Of a DNA stretch of 45,353 nt, positions 3,738 to 29,192 are shown piece after piece (position 1 is the stretch's first letter; each line of letters begins with the position of its first letter). The notes beneath the pieces are model-generated. The model saw nothing but the letters and a program-made list of their open reading frames with translations, ran no database searches and was not told where the DNA came from. Both the position numbers and the translations under genes were made by a program. This DNA comes from a virus: the IMG/VR virus record IMGVR_UViG_3300048591_001361, positions 1-45,353 of that record; one strand, given 5' to 3'.

Positions 3738-3992
3738 ATGCAACTCAATCTTTTCACTTCTACCGGAATCTACTGCGGCGTGTGTGGCAACGACCACGGA
3801 CGTCGAGAAGATAAACCTGACTTTTGGGCGGGTTTTTTTGATGCAGACACAGCGGGGTTTGTCGGCCTAAAATGCAGGGACAAGCATTACCGCAAAAAAC
3901 AGTTGCCCACCGGCGGTGTAACCTACTCGGAAATGCCGGTATCTATAGCCGGTGCCGGGATATTTCGCTCGATACAAGGGAGGGGCAAGTGA
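3738..3992 (+). CDS. Small Cys-containing protein coupled to the cytosine methyltransferase
   Basis: An 84-residue protein with CGVCGNDHGRR near its start and a later Cys/His pair (LKCRDKHY), a possible zinc knuckle. Its stop overlaps the GTG start of the cytosine methyltransferase by four bases, which implies translational coupling and perhaps a shared function. No family recognised. Confidence 0.6.
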   Translation: MQLNLFTSTGIYCGVCGNDHGRREDKPDFWAGFFDADTAGFVGLKCRDKHYRKKQLPTGGVTYSEMPVSIAGAGIFRSIQGRGK

Positions 3993-5659
3993 ATCCGGAG
4001 TTTATTGTAGTAGATCTTTTCTGCGGAGCCGGCGGCACCACCCTCGGCTATGAGCTATCGGGCAAAGCCATAGTAGTGGCGGCTTTAAATCACGACTCCA
4101 AGGCCATTAGAAGCCATTGGCGCAACCACCCCAATGTGACGCATTTTGAGGAAGATGTGCGCACCTTGCGCATGGCGGGGTTAATGAAATTGGTAACCGA
4201 AGCGCGGCGGCGGTATCCGCAAGCGCGCCTGGTATTATGGGCGAGCTTAGAATGCACCAATTTCAGTAAGGCGAAAGGCGGGCAGCCGCGCAAGGCAGAC
4301 AGCCGTACATTGGCTTGGGCGTTGGTTAGATACGTCGACGCGCTGCGGCCCGATCTCATTAAGATTGAAAATGTAGTGGAATTTATGGCTTGGGGACCAC
4401 TTGACGAAAACGGTAAACCCCAGAGCCGCCGCAACGGAGAGAGTTGGCTAAAGTGGAGGAAAAAGATATGCAGCCGCGGGTATGTGGATAGTTGGCGCGA
4501 ATTGAACGCTGCCGACTATGGGGCCTACACTAGTCGCAACCGCTTGTTTGGCATTTTTGCGCGATGTGAATCTTGGATAAAGTGGCCTGAGCCGACCCAC
4601 GCCAAAAAGCCGGGCGAAGGCACCCTTTTTGCGCAGCGCAAAAAGTGGCGTGCAGTGCGCGAGGTGCTGGATATGCACAATACAGGGCACAGTATTTTTT
4701 GGCGCACAAAACCCTTGGTGGATAAGACCTTGGAGCGGGTGTATGCTGGCCTAATCAAGTTTGTAGCCGGTGGTAAAAATCAATTCTTGGCCAAAATATA
4801 TGCCGTGAGCTCTACCAGCCCCGGAGTATACGATATAGGCACTACGGCGCACACCATTACCACTCGCGATTCACAAGCACTGGTTCAGGCCGAGTTTATC
4901 ACCAAATACTACAGCGGTGTGCCCATGAGTAAGAATATTCCTATATCGGGTCCGGCGGGCACCATAAAAACCAAAGATGGCCAAGCGTTGGTTTTTTTGG
5001 CTAAGAATTACAGCGGGGCCCACAATATACAAGGTGTGGAAGTGCCGTTGCACACCATTCCCACAAAAGATAAGTTTGCGGTAGTAGAAGCGCGATTTAT
5101 GAACCGCCAATATTCGCAGGGCACACCCATTGCGAGCATTGACAGCCCCGGCGACACCATCACCACTGTACCAAAGCAACAGGTAGTAAGCGCGTGGTTG
5201 TTGAACCATAACTTCAGTAATATCGGTGGCCATGTAGATGAACCTTCACCTACATTATTGGCCTCGCGCAAACACTATTATATTGTTAATCCGAGTTGGA
5301 CCGGTGCCCAAGCCGATATAGAACTTCCGTGCCCCACAGTGATTGCCCGGCAGGACAAATCGCCATTATATCTCATAGCTTGCGAAGAAGGCAATGTGGC
5401 GGTGCCGGTGTATGACACAGATAGCGGTGTAATGAAACGCATCAAGGCATTTATGGCGCTCTACAACATTATTGACATCAAGATGCGTATGCTGTCTGTT
5501 CGGGAATTGCTGCGTATACAGGGTTTTGGCGACCAATATATATTGGAGGGAAGCCAGGCGGACCAAAAAAAATTTATAGGCAATAGTGTAGAGCCTCATG
5601 TAGTATGCGCATGGGTCAATGCGTTGGTGATTGACCGCGCCCAAACGGATGCGGCATGA
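3989..5659 (+). CDS. DNA cytosine-5 methyltransferase with repeated target-recognition region
   Basis: A 556-residue C5 methyltransferase that transfers methyl from S-adenosylmethionine to cytosine in DNA. Motif I is DLFCGAGGTTLGYE (residues 9-22). Motif IV is ASLECTNFSKAKGG with probable catalytic Cys89, where Glu replaces the usual Pro before Cys. Motif VI is IENVVEF, a motif VIII-like element is SRNRLFG, and motifs IX-X lie near the C-terminus (SVRELLRIQGF, FIGNSVEPHVV). Between VIII and IX about six degenerate repeats of 30-40 residues recur with a P-x-x-T-I-x-T-K-D-like core, an enlarged target-recognition region. The start is GTG 3989, preceded by GGGAGGGG and overlapping the upstream stop; no conserved motif lies further upstream. 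Likely role is self-protection from host restriction. Confidence 0.9.
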   Translation: MNPEFIVVDLFCGAGGTTLGYELSGKAIVVAALNHDSKAIRSHWRNHPNVTHFEEDVRTLRMAGLMKLVTEARRRYPQARLVLWASLECTNFSKAKGGQPRKADSRTLAWALVRYVDALRPDLIKIENVVEFMAWGPLDENGKPQSRRNGESWLKWRKKICSRGYVDSWRELNAADYGAYTSRNRLFGIFARCESWIKWPEPTHAKKPGEGTLFAQRKKWRAVREVLDMHNTGHSIFWRTKPLVDKTLERVYAGLIKFVAGGKNQFLAKIYAVSSTSPGVYDIGTTAHTITTRDSQALVQAEFITKYYSGVPMSKNIPISGPAGTIKTKDGQALVFLAKNYSGAHNIQGVEVPLHTIPTKDKFAVVEARFMNRQYSQGTPIASIDSPGDTITTVPKQQVVSAWLLNHNFSNIGGHVDEPSPTLLASRKHYYIVNPSWTGAQADIELPCPTVIARQDKSPLYLIACEEGNVAVPVYDTDSGVMKRIKAFMALYNIIDIKMRMLSVRELLRIQGFGDQYILEGSQADQKKFIGNSVEPHVVCAWVNALVIDRAQTDAA

Positions 5660-6489
5660 ATAAGCACCTGAACATTATCTCATATTTTGGGGGGAAATTC
5701 CCTCACCTCAGTTGGTTGATTCCGCTGTTGCCCAAGGGTGATTATCACTTTGTAGACGCGATGTGCGGTGCTGCGAATGTGGCGCTCAATGTTACGTATC
5801 CGCTTATCACTATCAACGATCTGAACGACGATGTGATGAACCTATATAGGGTTTTGCGGGAGCAACCCGAAGAGTTTAAACGCGCGGTGTATTTTACCCC
5901 TTTTAGCCGCGCCGAGCTGTATCGCGCGCTCACATATCGGCGCCGATCGGACAGGGTGGAGTGGGCTCGAAATTTTTACGTGCGATGCCAGTTGGGTTTT
6001 GGCGCCAATGGTGCGCAGAACAGGCATAAAGGCGCGGGAATGGAATATGAGCTGCAGCGTTCTGCTTTTTACCGCGTTGATAATTGGAATGTAAAGCTGG
6101 CGAAGCTCGATGAGATTGTAAGCAAACTCCGGCATATGCAGATAGAGAGTAGAGATGTGATGGAACTTATAGACCGGGTAGATCGACCACAAACCATACT
6201 GTATGTCGACCCACCTTATTTGCGCAGCACTCGCAGCGACAACAAAAGGTACAAACACGAAACCGACGATGCTTTCCACGAAAAATTGCTCTGTACCCTA
6301 GGGCAGGTGAGACACGCATATGTAGCACTTAGCGGATATCATAGTGATATGTATGCATCGGTATTAGGCGACTGGCACATTACCCGCGGACCCGAAACTC
6401 GAAGCAACGTGAAAAAGCGCAAAGTGCGGGAATGCTTGTGGACTAATTATAACCCTGCTGTAATTAACGGGCAAATGGAATTATTTTAA
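5656..6489 (+). CDS. DNA adenine-N6 methyltransferase, Dam/D12 class
   Basis: A 277-residue D12-class methyltransferase. It has the N-terminal YFGGK (10-14), the AdoMet-binding FVDAMCGAANV (32-42) and the catalytic DPPY (185-188). The product would be N6-methyladenine in a short target that cannot be read from sequence. It overlaps the cytosine methyltransferase by four bases, so the two are coupled. No restriction endonuclease is nearby, so this is an orphan pair, common in phages that mask their DNA. Confidence 0.92.
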   Translation: MNKHLNIISYFGGKFPHLSWLIPLLPKGDYHFVDAMCGAANVALNVTYPLITINDLNDDVMNLYRVLREQPEEFKRAVYFTPFSRAELYRALTYRRRSDRVEWARNFYVRCQLGFGANGAQNRHKGAGMEYELQRSAFYRVDNWNVKLAKLDEIVSKLRHMQIESRDVMELIDRVDRPQTILYVDPPYLRSTRSDNKRYKHETDDAFHEKLLCTLGQVRHAYVALSGYHSDMYASVLGDWHITRGPETRSNVKKRKVRECLWTNYNPAVINGQMELF

Positions 6490-19500: not shown

Positions 19501-20117
19501 GCGACCATGAAGAACCACGGCGGCCCGTAAACAAATTGCTTGATGTGCATGACAAGACTACTCTTGACAACATACGGGCTTATCTATGGGACCCCGAAGT
19601 GAATGCCGAGAAGATCACAGCACACATGAAAGAAGTGCTTATTCGCTTGCGCAAAGCTCATAATCTATTATTTGAGTTCAAACTGAACAAAAAGGTTGCT
19701 GAGCTTTTGTGCTCTGAATATAAATATTCAATGAGCACAGGGTATCGTGATATCGCTGCAGCTAAGCTCATTTTTGGCGTTCGAAACGATGCCACCAAAG
19801 AATATGACCGCCATCTCTATATCGCTTGGCTTCGAGAAAGCGCTTTGAGAGCGCAAACGGCTGGTGATTATATGGCCGAGAGCAGACTTCTCAGCCAAGC
19901 CATCAAGCTTGAGCAATTCGATAAGCCCGAGGCCGAAGATGACGGGTTGCGCGAGGCGCCTCCTACATTTATCATCCAAAACAATCCCGAGCTAGTAGGG
20001 GGTAAGCGCATTAAGAATCTAGACGAACGAATATCGAGATTCAAGCACAAAAGACGTCAGGATTCTCTTGGGGTTGAGGAAGCGCAAATTATTTCGGAGG
20101 AAAGTGAAGAAAGTTAA
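19497..20117 (+). CDS. Probable small terminase subunit
   Basis: A 206-residue helical protein with an N-terminal disordered stretch, helices around 20-130 and an acidic end (QIISEESEES). It lies immediately upstream of the large terminase and overlaps it by 14 bp from the GTG start, the usual place for TerS, which binds the packaging site and regulates TerL. Assigned by position and size; no motif. Confidence 0.55.
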   Translation: MSDHEEPRRPVNKLLDVHDKTTLDNIRAYLWDPEVNAEKITAHMKEVLIRLRKAHNLLFEFKLNKKVAELLCSEYKYSMSTGYRDIAAAKLIFGVRNDATKEYDRHLYIAWLRESALRAQTAGDYMAESRLLSQAIKLEQFDKPEAEDDGLREAPPTFIIQNNPELVGGKRIKNLDERISRFKHKRRQDSLGVEEAQIISEESEES

Positions 20118-21732
20118 TCTACATATGAACCGCCCGCAAATTGCCTCAATGCTCATTCAAGCATGGATTGAGGTTGCGATATGGGGCAGGAGAACCGGCA
20201 AAACAACGGGTCTGATAAGTAAACGTCAATTAGATTATTGGTACACTTTTCCGCAGGGCACAACCGCTTTCGTGAGCCATACCTATCAGGCATTACTCAC
20301 TCGAACATTACCATCCCTTCGCATAGGGTTGGCGGTATATGGCTGGGAATGGGGGAAGGATTACCACATTGGTAGATTTGGGCCTAAATCGTGGAAACGG
20401 CCATATTTCTGCCCCGCTGACCCTGCGTATTTCATCCACAATAAAAACGGTTCCGGGACAATTTTATCAAGTCAGTACGGCAACATCGGTAACATCAATG
20501 GCGCTACCATTGATGCCGGTATCTCCGATGAAGCCAAGTACATAAACAAATCCAAATTCGATGAAGAAGTCATTCCTGCATTAAGCGGCAATAGTTTAGC
20601 CTGGAAAGAGCATCCATTGTTTGGGGGTTGGCTTTTTGTGTCTGATATGCCTCGCACGCCTGAAGGATACTGGTTGTTCGATTATGAGAAGCTTATGGAT
20701 ACAGAACAGATAGAGCTCATCAAGGAACTGGCAATTAAAGTAAATGACTATATACTTAAATTGGACTCCGCCAATGGAGTTACCGCAAAAAACTACCTCA
20801 CAAAACTCAACAAGTATAAAACTCTATTGGATGAGCTGCGATATGAGTCTATATATTACTCCGAGGCATCAACCCTCGAAAACATGGAAGTTCTAGGCGA
20901 GCGTTATATCCGGAACCAACAGAAAGTTTTATCCCCAAATGAGTTCGATATCTCAATTCTTAATCTCCGTGGCCACGCCAACAAACAAAGATTTTATGGC
21001 GAGTTCGACCCGAATATTCACGGTTACTATGCTATAGACAATGACTTCCTGCGCTCACTCGATTACGACTACGAAAAAATAACAAACCTCACTTGTCGTA
21101 AGGATACTGATATCGACCGGGATCAAGGCCTCCATATAGCTCTTGACTACGGCGCTAATTTTAACGGTGTGTGTACTGCTCAACTACAGGACCATGTTTT
21201 TTGTCATCTCAGTTCTATGTCTGTTACAGACCCTCATCGCCTTAGGCATCTCGCCGAAAAGTGGTGCGATTACTACCGCGATCACCCCACGCGAATAGCT
21301 CATTATTATTACGACCATACTGCTGTAGGTAGGGACGCTATCCGCGATATTGCATATTATCAGGAATGGTCATACTATCTCAAGAACAAAGGATGGGATG
21401 TTCGACTCTATTATATTGGATTAGCCCCTTCACACGTAGACCGATTCAACTTCTGGCAAAAATTCCTTAGAGGAGGCAACATAACCTATCCCAGATATAG
21501 ATACAACAGAGGGAATAACGAGGACTTCGAGATTGCTATCCAATCCGCTCAAACGAAAGAAGGCCGGAAAGGGATTGAGAAGGATAAGACCTCAGAGAAG
21601 CCAGAGCGAGGTATTAATCAAGCATATGCCACTCATATAACAGACGCCCTTGACACCTTAGCTTACAGTATGGTAGTTATCAAACCACTGCCACTTAGTA
21701 ACAATTCTGATATCGGTGTTATAAGTATGTAG
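20104..21732 (+). CDS. terL: Terminase large subunit (packaging ATPase/nuclease)
   Basis: A 542-residue packaging motor. Walker A GRRTGKTT lies at about residues 28-35, Walker B ending DE at 142-143, and a coupling motif near SDMPRTP. The C-terminal RNase H-like nuclease has LDYGANFNG with Asp348, the YYYDHTAVGRD segment and ITDALDTLAY near the end, giving the acidic triad. GTG 20104 is chosen because it follows GGAGGA and keeps the conserved leader before the P-loop; ATG 20125 is an alternative. It drives DNA into proheads and cuts concatemers. This is the clearest marker of a tailed phage in the window. Confidence 0.93.
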   Translation: MKKVNLHMNRPQIASMLIQAWIEVAIWGRRTGKTTGLISKRQLDYWYTFPQGTTAFVSHTYQALLTRTLPSLRIGLAVYGWEWGKDYHIGRFGPKSWKRPYFCPADPAYFIHNKNGSGTILSSQYGNIGNINGATIDAGISDEAKYINKSKFDEEVIPALSGNSLAWKEHPLFGGWLFVSDMPRTPEGYWLFDYEKLMDTEQIELIKELAIKVNDYILKLDSANGVTAKNYLTKLNKYKTLLDELRYESIYYSEASTLENMEVLGERYIRNQQKVLSPNEFDISILNLRGHANKQRFYGEFDPNIHGYYAIDNDFLRSLDYDYEKITNLTCRKDTDIDRDQGLHIALDYGANFNGVCTAQLQDHVFCHLSSMSVTDPHRLRHLAEKWCDYYRDHPTRIAHYYYDHTAVGRDAIRDIAYYQEWSYYLKNKGWDVRLYYIGLAPSHVDRFNFWQKFLRGGNITYPRYRYNRGNNEDFEIAIQSAQTKEGRKGIEKDKTSEKPERGINQAYATHITDALDTLAYSMVVIKPLPLSNNSDIGVISM

Positions 21733-23469: not shown

Positions 23470-23487
23470 GAACCACCGACCGTTGAG

Positions 23488-23523
23488 GAACCCTGTATCC
23501 GTTGTTAAACGTTTACAGGGTTC
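23488..23523 (+). terminator. Hairpin after DUF932 gene
   Basis: GAACCCTGTA (23488-23497) pairs with TACAGGGTTC (23514-23523), a perfect 10-bp stem with a 16-base loop, followed by a weak T-rich stretch. First of two stacked hairpins. Confidence 0.6.
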
Positions 23524-23532
23524 TGAAATTTT

Positions 23533-23581
23533 GCCCTTCGGGCTTCGTCTTCGTTCCTCGCCGAAACCACGAAGGGCTTTT
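23533..23581 (+). terminator. Second hairpin before the AT-rich island
   Basis: GCCCTTCG (23533-23540) pairs with CGAAGGGC (23570-23577), then TTTT. The loop is long and itself partly self-pairing. Together with the preceding stem it insulates the phage genes from the accessory operon. Confidence 0.65.
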
Positions 23582-23632: not shown

Positions 23633-23640
23633 TATATTTG
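23633..23640 (+). promoter_or_regulatory. Promoter of the AT-rich island (TATATTTG)
   Basis: A perfect TAnnTTTG -7 box at 23633-23640, followed two bases after its end by a GCAAGTTTAACC leader like that at 22075-22102. ATG 23669 lies 28 bp downstream. No clear -33 box. This host-type promoter precedes the long overlapping gene chain and could work in the lysogen. Confidence 0.65.
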
Positions 23641-23668: not shown

Positions 23669-24235
23669 ATGAAAACCGTTAACATTGAGCTTTTAGCCGA
23701 GCATCTCAAAGGCAAACTTTGGGAGAAAGGAGATGTAAAGAGACTTTACGTAGACAAAGGATTCAATACAAAAAAAATGAGAACGAAAGCCTATGTATTC
23801 CCAAAAATCGATGGTACCTATGGCGTAAACTGTACTATTGATTGTCCGAGTCAAGACCCTAATTGGATTGTGTCTCAGGAGAGTAAAATAACAGATTCTT
23901 TGATTGAAGATATCAACGAAATAATTGAAGAATTTGGCCATGAAATAGAAATAGCCCAATCTATTCAAACCGAACCTTTGGAGGTCGAAGAACAAGTACA
24001 AGGATACTATATGAGATGGCATGATGTGAGATTGCCAATCAGCAAATATGGTAAATTAGCAACCCGCAAAAGACAAAAAGTACATACGTACAAAGGAGCT
24101 ATAACTAAGACGCCATCAGGGTTTGTTGCTTTAAGCGATGATCTCTTTGGCCAAGCCCAGCGTTTTGAGCTCAATAACGTTTTGTACGAATATGGTCAAC
24201 TACCAAATTTTACCCACAATGGCGAACTGGGTTAG
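23669..24235 (+). CDS. Hypothetical protein, first gene of AT-rich island
   Basis: A 188-residue protein. It has a Lys-rich mixed domain (residues 1-70), an acidic helix (IEDINEIIEEFGHEIEIAQS) and a C-terminal region whose order P-T-G-F-V-A-L-S-x-D-L-F resembles pieces of the two small proteins downstream. No family recognised. It overlaps the next gene by 17 bp. It is AT-rich and probably acquired with the island. Confidence 0.6.
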   Translation: MKTVNIELLAEHLKGKLWEKGDVKRLYVDKGFNTKKMRTKAYVFPKIDGTYGVNCTIDCPSQDPNWIVSQESKITDSLIEDINEIIEEFGHEIEIAQSIQTEPLEVEEQVQGYYMRWHDVRLPISKYGKLATRKRQKVHTYKGAITKTPSGFVALSDDLFGQAQRFELNNVLYEYGQLPNFTHNGELG

Positions 24236-24491
24236 GATCAAATTCGAAAAGTACTTACATCACACCGGAAAGGCCATACTAGTGCGCGTTAATAACAAAG
24301 AGCATTGGATTCCCTTGAAGCTATGTAGGGATATTATAGTCAATAATAAACTTGGCGGCAATTTGTGTGTACCAATATTTGTAGCTGAAAAAATGAACGT
24401 AGAATTTACACCTGATATTGAATACATACATCATATACCGGAAGTACAAGATACATCAAATATAAAACACGATAAAAATTTATTCAAATGA
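24219..24491 (+). CDS. Small island protein with C-terminal HDxxLFK
   Basis: A 90-residue protein from ATG 24219. Beta-rich and basic in the middle (KAILVRVNNKEHWIPLK) with an ending IKHDKNLFK. A protein two genes away ends EHDADLFR and has a comparable middle, so the two look like paralogues. Overlaps the next gene in ATGA. Function unknown. Confidence 0.55.
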   Translation: MANWVRIKFEKYLHHTGKAILVRVNNKEHWIPLKLCRDIIVNNKLGGNLCVPIFVAEKMNVEFTPDIEYIHHIPEVQDTSNIKHDKNLFK

Positions 24492-24748
24492 AAAATCCAT
24501 ATTACCAAATGTCAGACTTCAATTACAATCCAACTAAAGAACAAGTTGAGTATGCGAACAAGTTTAATAAGATGGTTGCATCAGTTACATTTAACGGTGA
24601 AAAATATAGAGAAGATTTCTCCCACACCGAAGAGTATTCTTTGTATTTGAGATGGAAAACTCAAACAAACATGATAATAATGACTAAGGAAAGTCACGAC
24701 AGACTTCAGCTTGAAATGAAAGAAAAATGCTTAAAGACAATGAGATAA
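24488..24748 (+). CDS. Small hypothetical island protein
   Basis: An 86-residue, Tyr- and Lys-rich protein that sits between the two HDxxLF paralogues with overlaps at both ends. No family recognised. Confidence 0.5.
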   Translation: MKNPYYQMSDFNYNPTKEQVEYANKFNKMVASVTFNGEKYREDFSHTEEYSLYLRWKTQTNMIIMTKESHDRLQLEMKEKCLKTMR

Positions 24749-25047
24749 TTTGTAATGCACAAAGAGTAAAATATCATTCAATTGAATATTATGACAAGTA
24801 CATTACTATACAGCAAAACAGAACAAGGCGAAGGGTTCCCATTGGATATTACTTTGAGGATAACGGATCAGAAATATACTTATCCCTTTATTACTCTTGT
24901 TTATTTCAGTGTAAAAAAAAGATAAGGAAGTTCATTTTAAATAAAGAAACCAAAGAATTTAGAGATTTTAATCCTGTAACAGTAGAAAATCATATTCCAG
25001 AATTAATAATCAAAGATACTGAACACGATGCAGACCTTTTTAGATAG
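24727..25047 (+). CDS. Small island protein with C-terminal HDADLFR
   Basis: A 106-residue protein with a middle (YITIQQNRTRRRVPIGYYF) and end (IPELIIKDTEHDADLFR) like those of the 24219 gene, whose end reads IPEVQDTSNIKHDKNLFK. Divergent duplicates are likely. It overlaps the helicase gene by 20 bp, so the conserved tail is encoded in the overlap region. Confidence 0.55.
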   Translation: MLKDNEIICNAQRVKYHSIEYYDKYITIQQNRTRRRVPIGYYFEDNGSEIYLSLYYSCLFQCKKKIRKFILNKETKEFRDFNPVTVENHIPELIIKDTEHDADLFR

Positions 25048-26224
25048 TCAGGAAAAAGCCGTTGAAAAGCTAAATGCAGTTAAATGTGGTGCTTTATTTA
25101 TGGAAGCAGGCACAGGCAAAACTCGTTCTGCAATGCAGTTAATTAAAAATACGGATACTGATTATGTTCTTTGGTTTACACCCTTCCAAACAAAGGATAA
25201 TTTACGGGCTGAAATAAACAAATGGGGCGGATTAGATTGTGATATAGTCGGAATCGAAAGCATTCAGAACAGTAATAGAATTTATTTGGAATACACTCTA
25301 AAATGTCAAATGGCAAAAAATGTATTTATTGTTGTAGATGAGAGTTTGAAAATCAAAAATGCCGATGCTATAAGAACCCAAAGGCTTCTACACTTAGCAA
25401 AGAAATCAGCATACCGGATAATATTAAATGGAACGCCATTAAGTAGAAATATACTTGATTTATGGTCCCAAATGGAGTTTCTCTCACCTAAAATACTAAA
25501 GATGGGCTTAGCGGAATTTAAAAACACATTTTGCGAATACATAAAAGTAACTTATCACTCGCAGGGGTTTGGTAGGTCATATTCAAAGGAGTTTATAAAA
25601 AAGTATCACAATATTGAATATTTGTATAATCTAATTGAGCCATTTATTTTTGAAAGCAAATTATCGTTAAGTATAGGCCAACAACATATCGATATTGATT
25701 ACAGATTAACAAATAAAGAGCTCGAGGAACACGAAAGACTAAAAACTAAATACCTCGACAATGAATATCTGCTTGCAAGAAATAATAATATTTTTCTTGA
25801 GATTACCCAAAAGATGCAGCATAATTATTCTTTAAGTCCTGCAAAATTCGAGATAGTAGATGAATTATTATCAGATATTGACAAGTCAAAGGTTTTGATT
25901 TATGCAAAATACATAGACACACAAAAGGCGTTAAAGCAATATTACAAAGACATTGAAATTAAAAGCATAGCGAAACATTCCTATGGTCTTAATTTACAGG
26001 AGTACAACGTAATTATGTTTTGGGATAAGACTTGGGATTATGCCCAACGTGAGCAAATTGAACGGCGGATATTTAGAACAGGTCAAAACACAGATTGTAT
26101 TTATTATGATTTAACCGGAGATGTTGGTCTTGAAAAAATGATAAACCAAAACATTGAACGCAAACGAAAGTTATTAGATGTGTTTGCTGAAATGAGTGTT
26201 GAACAATTAAAAAGGGAGTTATGA
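25028..26224 (+). CDS. Compact SNF2-type DNA helicase/translocase
   Basis: A 398-residue superfamily 2 enzyme close to the minimal size for the fold. Walker A EAGTGKT is at 26-32, the DExx-type VVDES at 102-106, motif III LNGTPLSRN at 133-141 and motif VI QIERRIFRTGQ at about 344-354. No extra DNA-binding or nuclease domain is present, so it probably translocates on DNA and acts with partner proteins. It is AT-rich and overlaps its neighbours. SNF2-type ATPases are common in mobile defence and DNA-modification systems; here it precedes IbrA-like and IbrB-like proteins. Confidence 0.85.
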   Translation: MQTFLDSQEKAVEKLNAVKCGALFMEAGTGKTRSAMQLIKNTDTDYVLWFTPFQTKDNLRAEINKWGGLDCDIVGIESIQNSNRIYLEYTLKCQMAKNVFIVVDESLKIKNADAIRTQRLLHLAKKSAYRIILNGTPLSRNILDLWSQMEFLSPKILKMGLAEFKNTFCEYIKVTYHSQGFGRSYSKEFIKKYHNIEYLYNLIEPFIFESKLSLSIGQQHIDIDYRLTNKELEEHERLKTKYLDNEYLLARNNNIFLEITQKMQHNYSLSPAKFEIVDELLSDIDKSKVLIYAKYIDTQKALKQYYKDIEIKSIAKHSYGLNLQEYNVIMFWDKTWDYAQREQIERRIFRTGQNTDCIYYDLTGDVGLEKMINQNIERKRKLLDVFAEMSVEQLKREL

Positions 26225-27051
26225 AAACAAAGTTTTTAGTCTCAAAGAATTTAAAAAGTCGGCTTGATTTTATTCGCCGGTTAAAGGGTCGTAAAATCGC
26301 AATATTTGGCTATAAAACTGACATAGTAAATGAGTTTGATGTAGCTATTGATATGCATCAATTAATGAAAGAAGATTATTACTTAAATCACTTAGCTATG
26401 TGCAATAAGGATACAACGATTGTATTAATCGATGTGCTTGTTAAGCATGGAATATATGTTCATCCGTTTGGGAAAATATTTGCTTTTTCTGAACAAGCAA
26501 AGGAAACTATTGTTATAGATACATTTGCGTTTAAGTGGGATGAAAAGCAGATTGTTCGCCCGTTTCTTTTTATAGACCCGAGTATACTCGGTAGCTCAAT
26601 GATAAAATTCTATCAAGGCGCGGCCAATACAGTAGAAAATTATTACTCCGCAATAAAAACACACATCAAAATCGATGTACAGCCTCTTGAGATAGAAGTA
26701 ATCCAATATCACCCGACACAAGAAGAGGTCGGAGAATACAACAAATTGAAGCACAGCCTAATTATTCAAGAAAAACAACCAAAGAACAAAATTGTTAATT
26801 CTTTGATAGAATTTGTTGACAATCTTCAGTCACGCAAAGCTGTGATGGGAGAAGTCGCGGATAGTTATTTAGTAACATCAAACAAACCGAAAAACAAATT
26901 CATGATATATGATACTCTGCGTGATGAAAACATTCACAAAATCACATTTTTATCATCTAATATTTTTGGCGCCGATGAGATAGAATTAAACAAGACAAAA
27001 CTTGCGCTTGAAAGACATAATATATTAATAAGATTGTTGAATGGCAACTAA
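26221..27051 (+). CDS. Unknown protein, possibly a degenerate helicase relative
   Basis: A 276-residue protein. Residues 1-130 show alternating helix/strand with an RRLKGRKIAIFGYK strand but no Walker A motif. Around 170-210 the sequence QYHPTQEEVGEYNKLKHSL matches in spacing and pattern the segment after motif III in SNF2 helicases; the helicase next door has YRLTNKELEEHERLKTKYL at its equivalent place. It may be a decayed or regulatory SNF2 partner. Coupled by a four-base overlap to the helicase and ten bases to the IbrA-like gene. Confidence 0.5.
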   Translation: MKTKFLVSKNLKSRLDFIRRLKGRKIAIFGYKTDIVNEFDVAIDMHQLMKEDYYLNHLAMCNKDTTIVLIDVLVKHGIYVHPFGKIFAFSEQAKETIVIDTFAFKWDEKQIVRPFLFIDPSILGSSMIKFYQGAANTVENYYSAIKTHIKIDVQPLEIEVIQYHPTQEEVGEYNKLKHSLIIQEKQPKNKIVNSLIEFVDNLQSRKAVMGEVADSYLVTSNKPKNKFMIYDTLRDENIHKITFLSSNIFGADEIELNKTKLALERHNILIRLLNGN

Positions 27052-28168
27052 AAAGTACAATAGACAAAAGAATGTGTATGAGGCGGCAATCGAACGAATG
27101 TCGTTTATTTTTGAAAATTATAAGAATATCATAGTCAGTTGTAGTGGTGGGAAGGATAGTACAATTTGTACTTATTTAGCCTTAGAGGTTGCGAAGCGAA
27201 TGAGACGACCTTTTTATGTATTCTTCCTTGACCAAGAGATTGAATATTCGAGTACGGTTAATTTTATTGATTCGATAATGAAAGAGAAGTATGTGATTCC
27301 ACTATGGTTTCAGGTGCCCGCCTTATTAACAAATACGGCATCAATATCGCAAAATGTAATTGATCCTTGGAATCCTGAAAAGAAACTCCAATGGGTACAT
27401 AAACAAAAAGTCAAGTCTATAAAAAAAATTGATTGGGAGGTAGATGTACCATATCAATTTAAGAAAGAGAAAAAATACGGATTTTATGGATTAATACAAT
27501 GCATGGAGCAAATATTTAAGAAAAGTGATAGTGTCGCGCAGATTATTGGTTTGCGAGCTGATGAAAGTTTAGATCGATTCAGGGCAGTAACAAAGCATGA
27601 AGGCTTGCCAGGTATTCCTTGGTGCACAAAAACTAAAACCCACATTAAGTTCTATCCGATTTACGACTGGAGATTTACAGATATATGGGTTTATTTGTCC
27701 CGAAACAAAAAGAAGTACAATAAGATGTACGACTATTTCAACTTAAAAGGCATGCGAAACAATGAGATGCGACTTTCTAATTTGCTTCACGAAAAGGCTT
27801 ATGAATGTATTGCTGATTTACAAGAATTTGAACCTAAGTTATACGATAGAATGATTGACCGCTGTATGGGGATTGCAACTGCTCAGGAATATGCCGGACG
27901 CGGTGGTTCAATGTATAAAACTGAGAAACTTCCAAAGGATTTTACCTCATGGGTTGAATACCGAGACTATCTATTATCGACCCTCCCTAATAGAGAACAT
28001 GCTGAGATATTCCGCAAAAGATTTGATTCACAGTTTAAAAATGATTATGTGGTTAAGCAGCAGGTTAACCGAATATTAATCACAGATGTGAATAATTTTA
28101 AAAAAATCAACAATTTTCAAGAAGACCCTTCAGTTAAGATAAGGGAAAAATGGATGGAGATATTGTAA
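27041..28168 (+). CDS. IbrA-like PAPS-reductase-family protein
   Basis: A 375-residue PP-loop ATPase of the phosphoadenosine-phosphosulfate reductase superfamily. The PP-loop SGGKDST is at 35-41, and GLRADES (170-176) and YPIYDWRFTDIW (205-216) match the family that contains IbrA (DUF3440 type). IbrA with IbrB enhances expression of prophage genes in Escherichia coli; the related DndC and SspD handle sulfur for DNA phosphorothioation. Cys codons include the IPWC segment near 192-195. It is followed 17 bp later by an IbrB-like gene. The substrate here is unknown. Confidence 0.8.
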   Translation: MATKKYNRQKNVYEAAIERMSFIFENYKNIIVSCSGGKDSTICTYLALEVAKRMRRPFYVFFLDQEIEYSSTVNFIDSIMKEKYVIPLWFQVPALLTNTASISQNVIDPWNPEKKLQWVHKQKVKSIKKIDWEVDVPYQFKKEKKYGFYGLIQCMEQIFKKSDSVAQIIGLRADESLDRFRAVTKHEGLPGIPWCTKTKTHIKFYPIYDWRFTDIWVYLSRNKKKYNKMYDYFNLKGMRNNEMRLSNLLHEKAYECIADLQEFEPKLYDRMIDRCMGIATAQEYAGRGGSMYKTEKLPKDFTSWVEYRDYLLSTLPNREHAEIFRKRFDSQFKNDYVVKQQVNRILITDVNNFKKINNFQEDPSVKIREKWMEIL

Positions 28169-28185
28169 ACTAAATTTAAACAATA

Positions 28186-28755
28186 ATGAATAAAATAGAA
28201 ACGATTGAAGACTACTTTCAGTGGAGGCAAACGCAAGTAGTTTACGAAGAGAGGGGAATAAAATTTCCTGTATTAAATGCTGTGCTGGTTAATCGCAGCT
28301 TAGTTCAAGCTAATGATTACAACCCGAACCACGTGGCAAAGGATAAAATGAAATTATTACAAACATCAATAGTTGAGAACGGTTTCTGTTTTGGAATAGT
28401 ATCGATATATGATGATGAACTCCAAAAATTTGTGATTATTGATGGCGACCACCGGAATCAAATATCCGGAGAAAAGTGGCTTAAACTAACATATGTGCCG
28501 CTCGTTATATTAAATCACCAAATGAGTAAGAGGCTTTCTGCCACCGTTCAATTTAATAAAGCCCGTGGCGTCCACCAAATCGAGGGGAATGCGGGGCTGG
28601 TTAGGCGAATGGTTGAACTCGGTATAAGTGACATTGATATTTGCAAGGCATTAGGGATGGAACCGGACGAGGTATTGAGATTTAAGCGGAATGTAAAAAT
28701 AGTAGATGTTTATAAAGATTTGAATTTTTCAAACTCATGGGAAATACAGAATTAG
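28186..28755 (+). CDS. IbrB-like ParB-fold protein
   Basis: A 189-residue protein with the ParB/Srx nuclease-like fold: YNPN (45-48), DGDHR (86-90) and FNKARGVH (123-130), then a helical C-terminal domain. It sits 17 bp after the IbrA-like gene, the same order as the IbrA-IbrB pair on other mobile elements. Many relatives of this fold bind nucleotides or act as ATPase-like switches, so it may use CTP or ATP. Overlaps the next gene by 19 bp. Confidence 0.78.
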   Translation: MNKIETIEDYFQWRQTQVVYEERGIKFPVLNAVLVNRSLVQANDYNPNHVAKDKMKLLQTSIVENGFCFGIVSIYDDELQKFVIIDGDHRNQISGEKWLKLTYVPLVILNHQMSKRLSATVQFNKARGVHQIEGNAGLVRRMVELGISDIDICKALGMEPDEVLRFKRNVKIVDVYKDLNFSNSWEIQN

Positions 28756-28919
28756 AGAAGAAATACAAAAAAATCCTCATTGATTTGGGGGTATCTGACA
28801 CGGCTGTCGGCTTGGCTTTTGGGTATAAACATCTACAGAGCTGGCATAGTTCAACGCGGAGATTGAAAGTGATGGCGGGGATAGTTTGGTTGTTCAATCT
28901 CATTAAGTCGAAGGATTAA
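28737..28919 (+). CDS. Small HTH-like protein ending the island
   Basis: A 60-residue protein with LGVSDTAVGLAFGYKHLQSW, a helix-turn-helix-like core, and a hydrophobic final helix. It overlaps the IbrB-like gene by 19 bp. It may regulate the island, or be a small DNA-binding cofactor. No named family. Confidence 0.5.
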   Translation: MGNTELEKKYKKILIDLGVSDTAVGLAFGYKHLQSWHSSTRRLKVMAGIVWLFNLIKSKD

Positions 28920-28927: not shown

Positions 28928-28973
28928 CGGGGTGGAGATACCTCGCTTTTTATTTGCGCCCGATCAAAAAGAA

Positions 28974-29192
28974 ATGCAGTTGTACATTGTACATACTGAA
29001 TTTCCTTTGTCGATTATTTACGTCGAACAGACCATTCCGGCAAAGTTATTTGTAGTGAAAACCGAGCTTGTTGACGATGACGAAAGTCAAGATGAGTTAG
29101 CTCATGACGAGAGAGAAATGTTGGAGGAAATGCTGATAGCCGCGGGAGATTGGTACAGAACGGCAGCGCCCGATTCCTTAAATAAAAACTAA
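28974..29192 (+). CDS. Small acidic protein
   Basis: A 72-residue protein from ATG 28974; GTG 28932 is less likely. The first 40 residues are strands with hydrophobic faces (YIVHTEFPLSIIYVEQ) and the rest is very acidic (VDDDESQDELAHDEREM). Negative charge of this kind is found in DNA-mimic inhibitors as well as in structural proteins, but there is no further evidence. Function unknown. Confidence 0.5.
   Translation: MQLYIVHTEFPLSIIYVEQTIPAKLFVVKTELVDDDESQDELAHDEREMLEEMLIAAGDWYRTAAPDSLNKN

Follow-up and report, generated by a model that had tools for sequence, protein, structure and literature searches.

The viral sequence IMGVR_UViG_3300048591_001361 from IMG/VR, 45,353 nucleotides (nt) long and analysed here in full (the window), carries at 23669-28919 a cassette encoding an SNF2-family ATPase, a second protein predicted to be an SNF2 paralogue without catalytic activity, and IbrA-like and IbrB-like proteins. 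Comparison with other viral and bacterial loci leaves us almost certain that a widespread and mobile SNF2-IbrA-IbrB module exists. Judged from sequence, an SNF2 ATPase of the active type, an upstream protein with a modelled beta barrel, an IbrA lacking conserved cysteines and an IbrB of the ParB/Srx fold are co-encoded and remain linked despite swaps of the individual parts, and in the subtype of the window the predicted dead SNF2 is an additional part of the module.

Linkage and exchange of the module genes

Loci were retrieved from IMG/VR and from a species-level genome set with only the profile of the SNF2 protein as query, which kept the retrieval free of bias towards IbrA or IbrB. IbrA and/or IbrB was encoded directly downstream of the SNF2 gene in all 72 distinct viral loci found among the best 80 of 450 by score, which is the sample that limits the linkage claim for viruses, and in 48 of 49 assessable genome loci. 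The median gap between the SNF2 gene and IbrA/IbrB was -3 nt. Among 50,697 phage records, only 215 contained a match to the window IbrA, and the probability that SNF2 and IbrAB are linked by chance is therefore negligible; in plasmids, such matches were present in 587 records. The initial annotation of the cassette, made from the sequence without database searches, had proposed a check for co-occurrence of these genes elsewhere; with SNF2 accompanied by IbrA/IbrB in 120 of 121 assessable distinct loci, a lack of co-occurrence is refuted. The sole unlinked locus, L221 (5556-7311) from Succinivibrio, encodes an adaptor and SNF2 without IbrAB on a plasmid-like contig with ParA/ParB. Hosts of the module belong to the Bacteroidota, Bacillota, Verrucomicrobiota and Pseudomonadota, with one additional metagenome-assembled genome from the Nitrospirae.

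With locus L017 the window shares 84% identity in SNF2 but only 32% in IbrA. With locus L003 the values are 72% for IbrA, 70% for IbrB and 44% for SNF2. Over 128 loci the distances of IbrA and IbrB were correlated with a Mantel r of 0.76, and those of SNF2 and IbrA with an r of 0.33. Furthermore, the SNF2 tree implies 12 or more flips in the order of IbrA and IbrB, a rough number obtained from a quick tree. Parts that are so often exchanged but keep their linkage very probably function together.

Predicted proteins of the cassette

The SNF2-family ATPase (25028-26224, plus strand, 398 amino acids (aa)) matches PF00176 with 47 bits against a cutoff of 24.9, placing it among the SNF2/SWI2 ATPases, and shares the helicase family phrog_62. 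Motifs I, II, III, V and VI (GTGKT, DES, GTP, GLNLQ and Q...R..R.GQ) are intact and are 90-100% conserved among 140 sequences.

The product of the sixth open reading frame (ORF6; 26221-27051, plus strand, 276 aa), initially described as a helicase-like partner, is indeed related to the SNF2 family and can be specified as a catalytically dead member on the basis of its sequence and structural model. Profile-profile comparison with the SNF2 family using hhalign gave 96.8% (2e-10) over the motif II-III region, and the AF2 (AlphaFold2) model (pLDDT 83.6) aligns with SNF2 ATPases over 267 of its 276 residues (Z 14.4, rmsd 4.4), with both lobes of the two-lobe fold present. A Foldseek match to the SNF2 fold was obtained at 8e-6, and a profile of ORF6 relatives retrieves active SNF2s at 9e-16. 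The active motifs are lost, with the Walker A, DExx and arginine-finger positions substituted in all homologs. Inactive SNF2 domains have been described in DndH and PglZ (PMC12839542).

Searches of viral contigs for ORF6 by exact patterns gave only two already known loci, and position-based and profile searches gave more. Another clade has comparable proteins of 291 aa (A7), with their genes placed between those of SNF2 and IbrA. A link of these proteins to ORF6 was obtained at 70% (4e-5), and the ORF6 profile also found them; one weak Pfam match at 0.005 links them to SNF2, and direct comparison with the SNF2 profile was negative (4%). In 15 loci, among them L049 (7206-7955), a 249-aa family (A8) that gave no Pfam match replaces the dead SNF2 in front of IbrA. 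A short C-terminal remnant of SNF2 precedes an intact IbrA-IbrB pair in Streptococcus phage 94 (L007, 5763-6002).

IbrA (27041-28168, plus strand) is a predicted PP-loop ATP-pyrophosphatase of the PAPS-reductase/DUF3440 family, matching PF01507 with 70.6 bits (cutoff 22.5) and DUF3440 with 39.7 bits (cutoff 25) and followed by IbrB at +17 nt. The PP-loop SGGKDS, a DxE pair, GxRxxES and YPxxDWxxxD are kept in practically all of 185 sequences, in which no alignment column contains cysteine in more than 54%. The nearest solved structures include the ATP sulfurylase subunit CysD (1zun) and FAD synthase (8rom), both of which transfer adenylyl groups, and because the nearest solved relatives do so, we infer that the module may adenylate something. 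One 789-aa IbrA-like ORF (L132, 4666-7035) contains an apparent intein directly after the PP-loop, with a TGDHSVM motif.

The IbrB-like protein (28186-28755, plus strand) belongs to the ParB family phrog_2159 of PHROG (8e-39) and to the ParB/Srx superfamily, and its DG-[x]-HR motif is 100% conserved. By profile, the nearest structures are the ParB/Noc CTPases and the free serine kinase SerK. The ParB domain of IbrB furthermore resembles that fused to phage DNA methyltransferases (phrog_498). On a Klebsiella pneumoniae plasmid (L237, 4962-6823) IbrAB is encoded directly upstream of iroB, and an IbrA homolog occurs in 323 Klebsiella plasmid records. Arrays of the type ParB-PAPS reductase-ParB, where SNF2 of the window family was not found, are present in actinobacterial and Bacillus phages (L012, L013 and L014). 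Two of these arrays adjoin a terminase (L012 and L013) and two occur with a methyltransferase (L013 and L014).

In 104 of 137 loci the SNF2 gene is directly preceded by the gene of a small protein. What seemed to be three distinct types of this adaptor fall into one superfamily when profiles are iterated, with a structural model consisting of a small beta barrel and a C-terminal tail that is flexible yet conserved. A structure search with the adaptor returned weak SH3-like barrels only (best Z 4.0 over about 50 residues), and gave no usable hint of function. In the window, ORF2 (24219-24491, plus strand, 90 aa), modelled as a six-stranded barrel with the flexible, conserved tail, belongs to this superfamily, as probably does ORF4 (24727-25047, plus strand, 106 aa), which overlaps the start of SNF2 and matches the profile of the S1-type adaptors. 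ORF2 was annotated as starting at 24138, and its homologs begin at the equivalent of 24219, which is probably the true start and results in a 17-nt overlap with ORF1.

ORF1 (23669-24235, plus strand, 188 aa) has no assigned family; its relatives lie upstream of the small adaptor or SNF2 in other cassettes and make up a second recurrent upstream family (35 loci). For ORF3 (24488-24748, plus strand, 86 aa), family searches gave no match above noise. Downstream of IbrB, genes for small helix-turn-helix (HTH) proteins and relatives of ORF10 (28932-29192, plus strand, 86 aa) are common in other cassettes, the former in the position taken here by ORF9 (28737-28919, plus strand, 60 aa) and the latter right after IbrB or the HTH gene. 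Because relatives of ORF10 directly follow IbrB elsewhere, the cassette probably reaches 29192, past the end first assigned to it.

The locus in the window

The initial annotation had described an almost unbroken AT-rich chain of nine genes, and inspection of the window confirms this. The block at 23669-28919 consists of nine ORFs, all on the plus strand, with neighbours overlapping by 4-22 nt except for the 17-nt gap between the end of IbrA (28168) and the start of IbrB (28186), and has a G+C content of 0.32-0.37 as compared to about 0.44-0.53 in most of the remaining window. The names first given to the SNF2, IbrA-like and IbrB-like proteins agree with their matches to PF00176, to PF01507 and DUF3440, and to phrog_2159, respectively, and the motifs EAGTGKT, SGGKDST and DGDHR are all present. 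The proposed pair of terminators was likewise recovered on folding, as two strong hairpins (23487-23577, plus strand) that set the cassette apart from the upstream operon, the first at about 23487-23524 (-22.7 kcal/mol, z -6.0) and the second at 23533-23577 (z -3.1). The case for a host-type promoter is weaker. The putative -7 box TATATTTG (23633-23640, plus strand) fits the Bacteroidota consensus, but its partner -33 TTTG is off the canonical spacing, and the frequency of the two-box (-33/-7) pattern in the window was not above chance.

The proposed location between packaging and portal genes is supported by distant homology only. On one side, the product of 20068-21732 is similar to a phage protein (25.7% identity, 1e-37), which in turn matches the terminase large subunit at 3e-5, and on the other the product of 29813-31150 matches a portal profile at 1e-3. 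The module version of the lytic Flavobacterium phage FCL-2 likewise sits between terminase and portal. The window phage also encodes a tyrosine integrase, a C5-cytosine methyltransferase (3872-5659) and a D12-class N6-adenine DNA methyltransferase (5656-6489). The two adjacent methyltransferase genes (3872-6489) represent an investment of the phage in DNA modification outside the cassette. Given these two enzymes and the tyrosine type of the integrase, the guess that the phage is Mu-like was rejected. Rfam and tRNA scans of the window gave no matches, and no named phage matched 25 kb of the window in a search at the DNA level. A portal-based search for relatives with an empty site was also without matches, hence no empty site is shown.

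Possible functions of the module

The best explanation, which we put forward tentatively and as falling a little short of probable, is a DNA-translocating adenylation or modification module used in phage counter-defence. The SNF2 motor and its dead copy, tethered by the adaptor tail, would track along double-stranded phage DNA and carry with them IbrB, as a nucleoside triphosphate (NTP)-binding, DNA-associated protein, and IbrA, which would activate a substrate by converting ATP to AMP and pyrophosphate (adenylyl transfer). The outcome would be a covalent mark on phage DNA or on a DNA-bound protein, blunting restriction or CRISPR-type defences of the host. A role in counter-defence or DNA protection is slightly more probable than not, while the specific mechanism of DNA modification is a possibility about which we are more doubtful.

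Only the gene context (methyltransferases, AcrIIA5 and a queuine-transglycosylase cluster) argues for the DNA modification or counter-defence role suggested in the initial annotation. Extra ParB proteins and DNA methyltransferases are the commonest neighbours of the module, in a neighbour list compiled without a background set. A DPPW-type methyltransferase adjoins IbrAB in 29 of 185 loci, and mapping this adjacency onto the IbrA tree gives a minimum of 8 independent label changes. In the virulent Streptococcus thermophilus phages D4276, CHPC877 and CHPC1062 the gene of AcrIIA5 directly abuts the module, and in D4276 (L233, 3194-3984) it ends on the first base of the adaptor gene, a layout shared by the other two. 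In Fusobacterium phage phiFN37 (L232, 7569-9878), genes for a ParB, a queuine tRNA-ribosyltransferase and a queuosine precursor transporter are located about 1.4 kb downstream of the module. A phage precedent for the pairing of SNF2 with a DNA-modifying enzyme is DarB (PMC5512222). In the DarB-type polyvalent proteins of P1 and its relatives, which share phrog_62, an SNF2 ATPase is combined with a methyltransferase for anti-restriction. These are giant injected proteins, whereas the window module consists of separate small proteins, and the chemistry of the partner would be of the adenylation type instead of methylation.

Several observations weigh against a modification module for counter-defence. 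SNF2 was not within reach in 42 of 79 viral loci fetched with IbrA. With so many pairs lacking it, the motor adds to a core IbrAB pair and is not required for the pair's own activity. IbrAB received its name as an activator of prophage genes, and a search of the open-access literature found no biochemical or genetic data on the SNF2 module. The methyltransferases could be independent anti-restriction cargo. The adjacency of AcrIIA5 is limited to three phages and to a general accessory region, and AcrIIA5 is also found in Sfi21 and other phages, none of which is among the module matches listed. Finally, the Listeria copies, which are chromosomal, are not easily explained by phage counter-defence. 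Listeria lmo1309-lmo1310-lmo1311 constitute the same module (IbrB, IbrA and SNF2, with a small adaptor) without the dead SNF2, located between frr-pyrH and tkt, flanked on either side by housekeeping genes and free of phage genes in these flanks. These genes have been listed previously, without being treated as a module (PMC5736727).

The initial annotation regarded the system as carried in the lysogen. This is consistent with the integrase of the window phage, but the module is also present in Listeria chromosomes, with their phage-gene-free flanks, and in FCL-2, for which no signs of lysogeny were reported (PMC4541368). A role specific to lysogens is therefore unlikely as a complete account.

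An alternative that we consider clearly unlikely is a joint activation of phage or prophage promoters by IbrA and IbrB, with the SNF2 pair acting on RNA polymerase or DNA topology in a RapA-like manner. The E. coli prophage IbrA/IbrB, and YbdN/YbdM of K-12, belong to the same families, form adjacent pairs and have the same motifs, with IbrA/IbrB of phage PhiR5_2 at 28-34% identity to the window proteins, and IbrAB of E. coli is a reported activator of prophage genes. This role is in use as an annotation (PMC5874904), RapA is an SNF2 family member that acts on RNA polymerase (PMC5512222), and IbrB is often followed by small HTH genes. The similarity has its limits, however. Neither the PhiR5_2 copy nor two plasmid copies of the E. 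coli-type pair, the plasmid gene table being incomplete, show an adjoining SNF2, adaptor or dead SNF2; the reported role in gene activation is itself a further difference. In addition, activation of phage promoters does not account for a module amid Listeria housekeeping genes or for the many methyltransferases and extra ParBs among the neighbours, and the catalytic site of the PP-loop, intact in the 185 IbrA sequences, would be superfluous in a pure activator.

About as improbable is that temperate phages and chromosomes carry the module as a defence system, either restriction-like or acting by superinfection exclusion. PADLOC matches show the SNF2 ATPases to resemble the Zorya, Dpd and DISARM motors, both bacterial chromosomes and viral contigs carry the module on its own, and nuclease activity is possible for ParB/Srx domains (PMC5512222). 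The likeness to defence motors is, however, limited to the shared helicase core, and the other cassette proteins match none of the models of these three systems. In the case of the 7-deazaguanine system Dpd, the motor DpdE resembles the window SNF2 in this core, and a ParB-like protein and a base-transglycosylase are found near the module in phiFN37, but the DpdA transglycosylase is absent from the window cassette. The module has no recognisable conserved nuclease, toxin or membrane effector, and FCL-2, as a carrier without reported lysogeny, would gain little from immunity.

Sulfur chemistry of the DndC/CysH type, either DNA phosphorothioation, in line with the sulfur modification raised in the initial annotation, or auxiliary metabolism for sulfate reduction, is very improbable. 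The PAPS_reduct domain and weak matches to DndC and BrxP are in its favour, phage homologs are routinely labelled PAPS reductase auxiliary genes (PMC10434257, PMC11318856), and Dnd, SspABCD and type-4 BREX also combine an enzyme of the PAPS-reductase family with a ParB/Srx-superfamily protein and a motor. However, DndC requires C280 for its Fe-S cluster (PMC11662687), and because IbrA has no conserved cysteine, its sequence excludes sulfur transfer as in DndC or CysH as a shared function of the family. On this cysteine conservation the candidate was rejected and is mostly refuted. IbrA is also far under the curated cutoffs for DndC (25.4 vs 290.4 bits) and CysH (34.5 vs 165.1), no cysteine desulfurase, DndD or DndE was seen in the module, and its motor differs from theirs. 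A cargo role, as a toxin-antitoxin pair or for host fitness, has been guessed for lmo1309-1310 but can be dismissed as scarcely credible. The TASmania profile by which Listeria IbrB was called an antitoxin and IbrA, through guilt by association, a toxin (PMC7020466) draws on ParB similarity alone, whereas IbrA with its PP-loop resembles an enzyme, and a motor and adaptors accompany the pair.

In its boldest form the counter-defence reading would amount to a new class of phage DNA modification, in which SNF2, its dead copy and a ParB-type NTP clamp move a cysteine-less adenylyltransferase of the PAPS-reductase type along double-stranded DNA, installing a group derived from a nucleotide or an amine that would conceal the genome from nucleases of the host. 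We regard this as conceivable but rather unlikely.

The individual parts come from known families, but the open-access literature searched appears to contain no description of their almost obligate co-occurrence, of the adaptor superfamily or of the dead SNF2 partner. IbrA and IbrB are widespread in phages, and their genes often carry a wrong label, either of sulfate metabolism or of 'prophage activator'. That a large branch of IbrAB is tied to its own SNF2 motor, together with a small adaptor and in some cases a dead SNF2, provides a mechanistic frame for the family, and D4276, CHPC877, FCL-2 and the chromosomal copy of Listeria offer cultured models. If the module does modify DNA, its chemistry would be new; if it serves in counter-defence, it would be a common system that has been overlooked.

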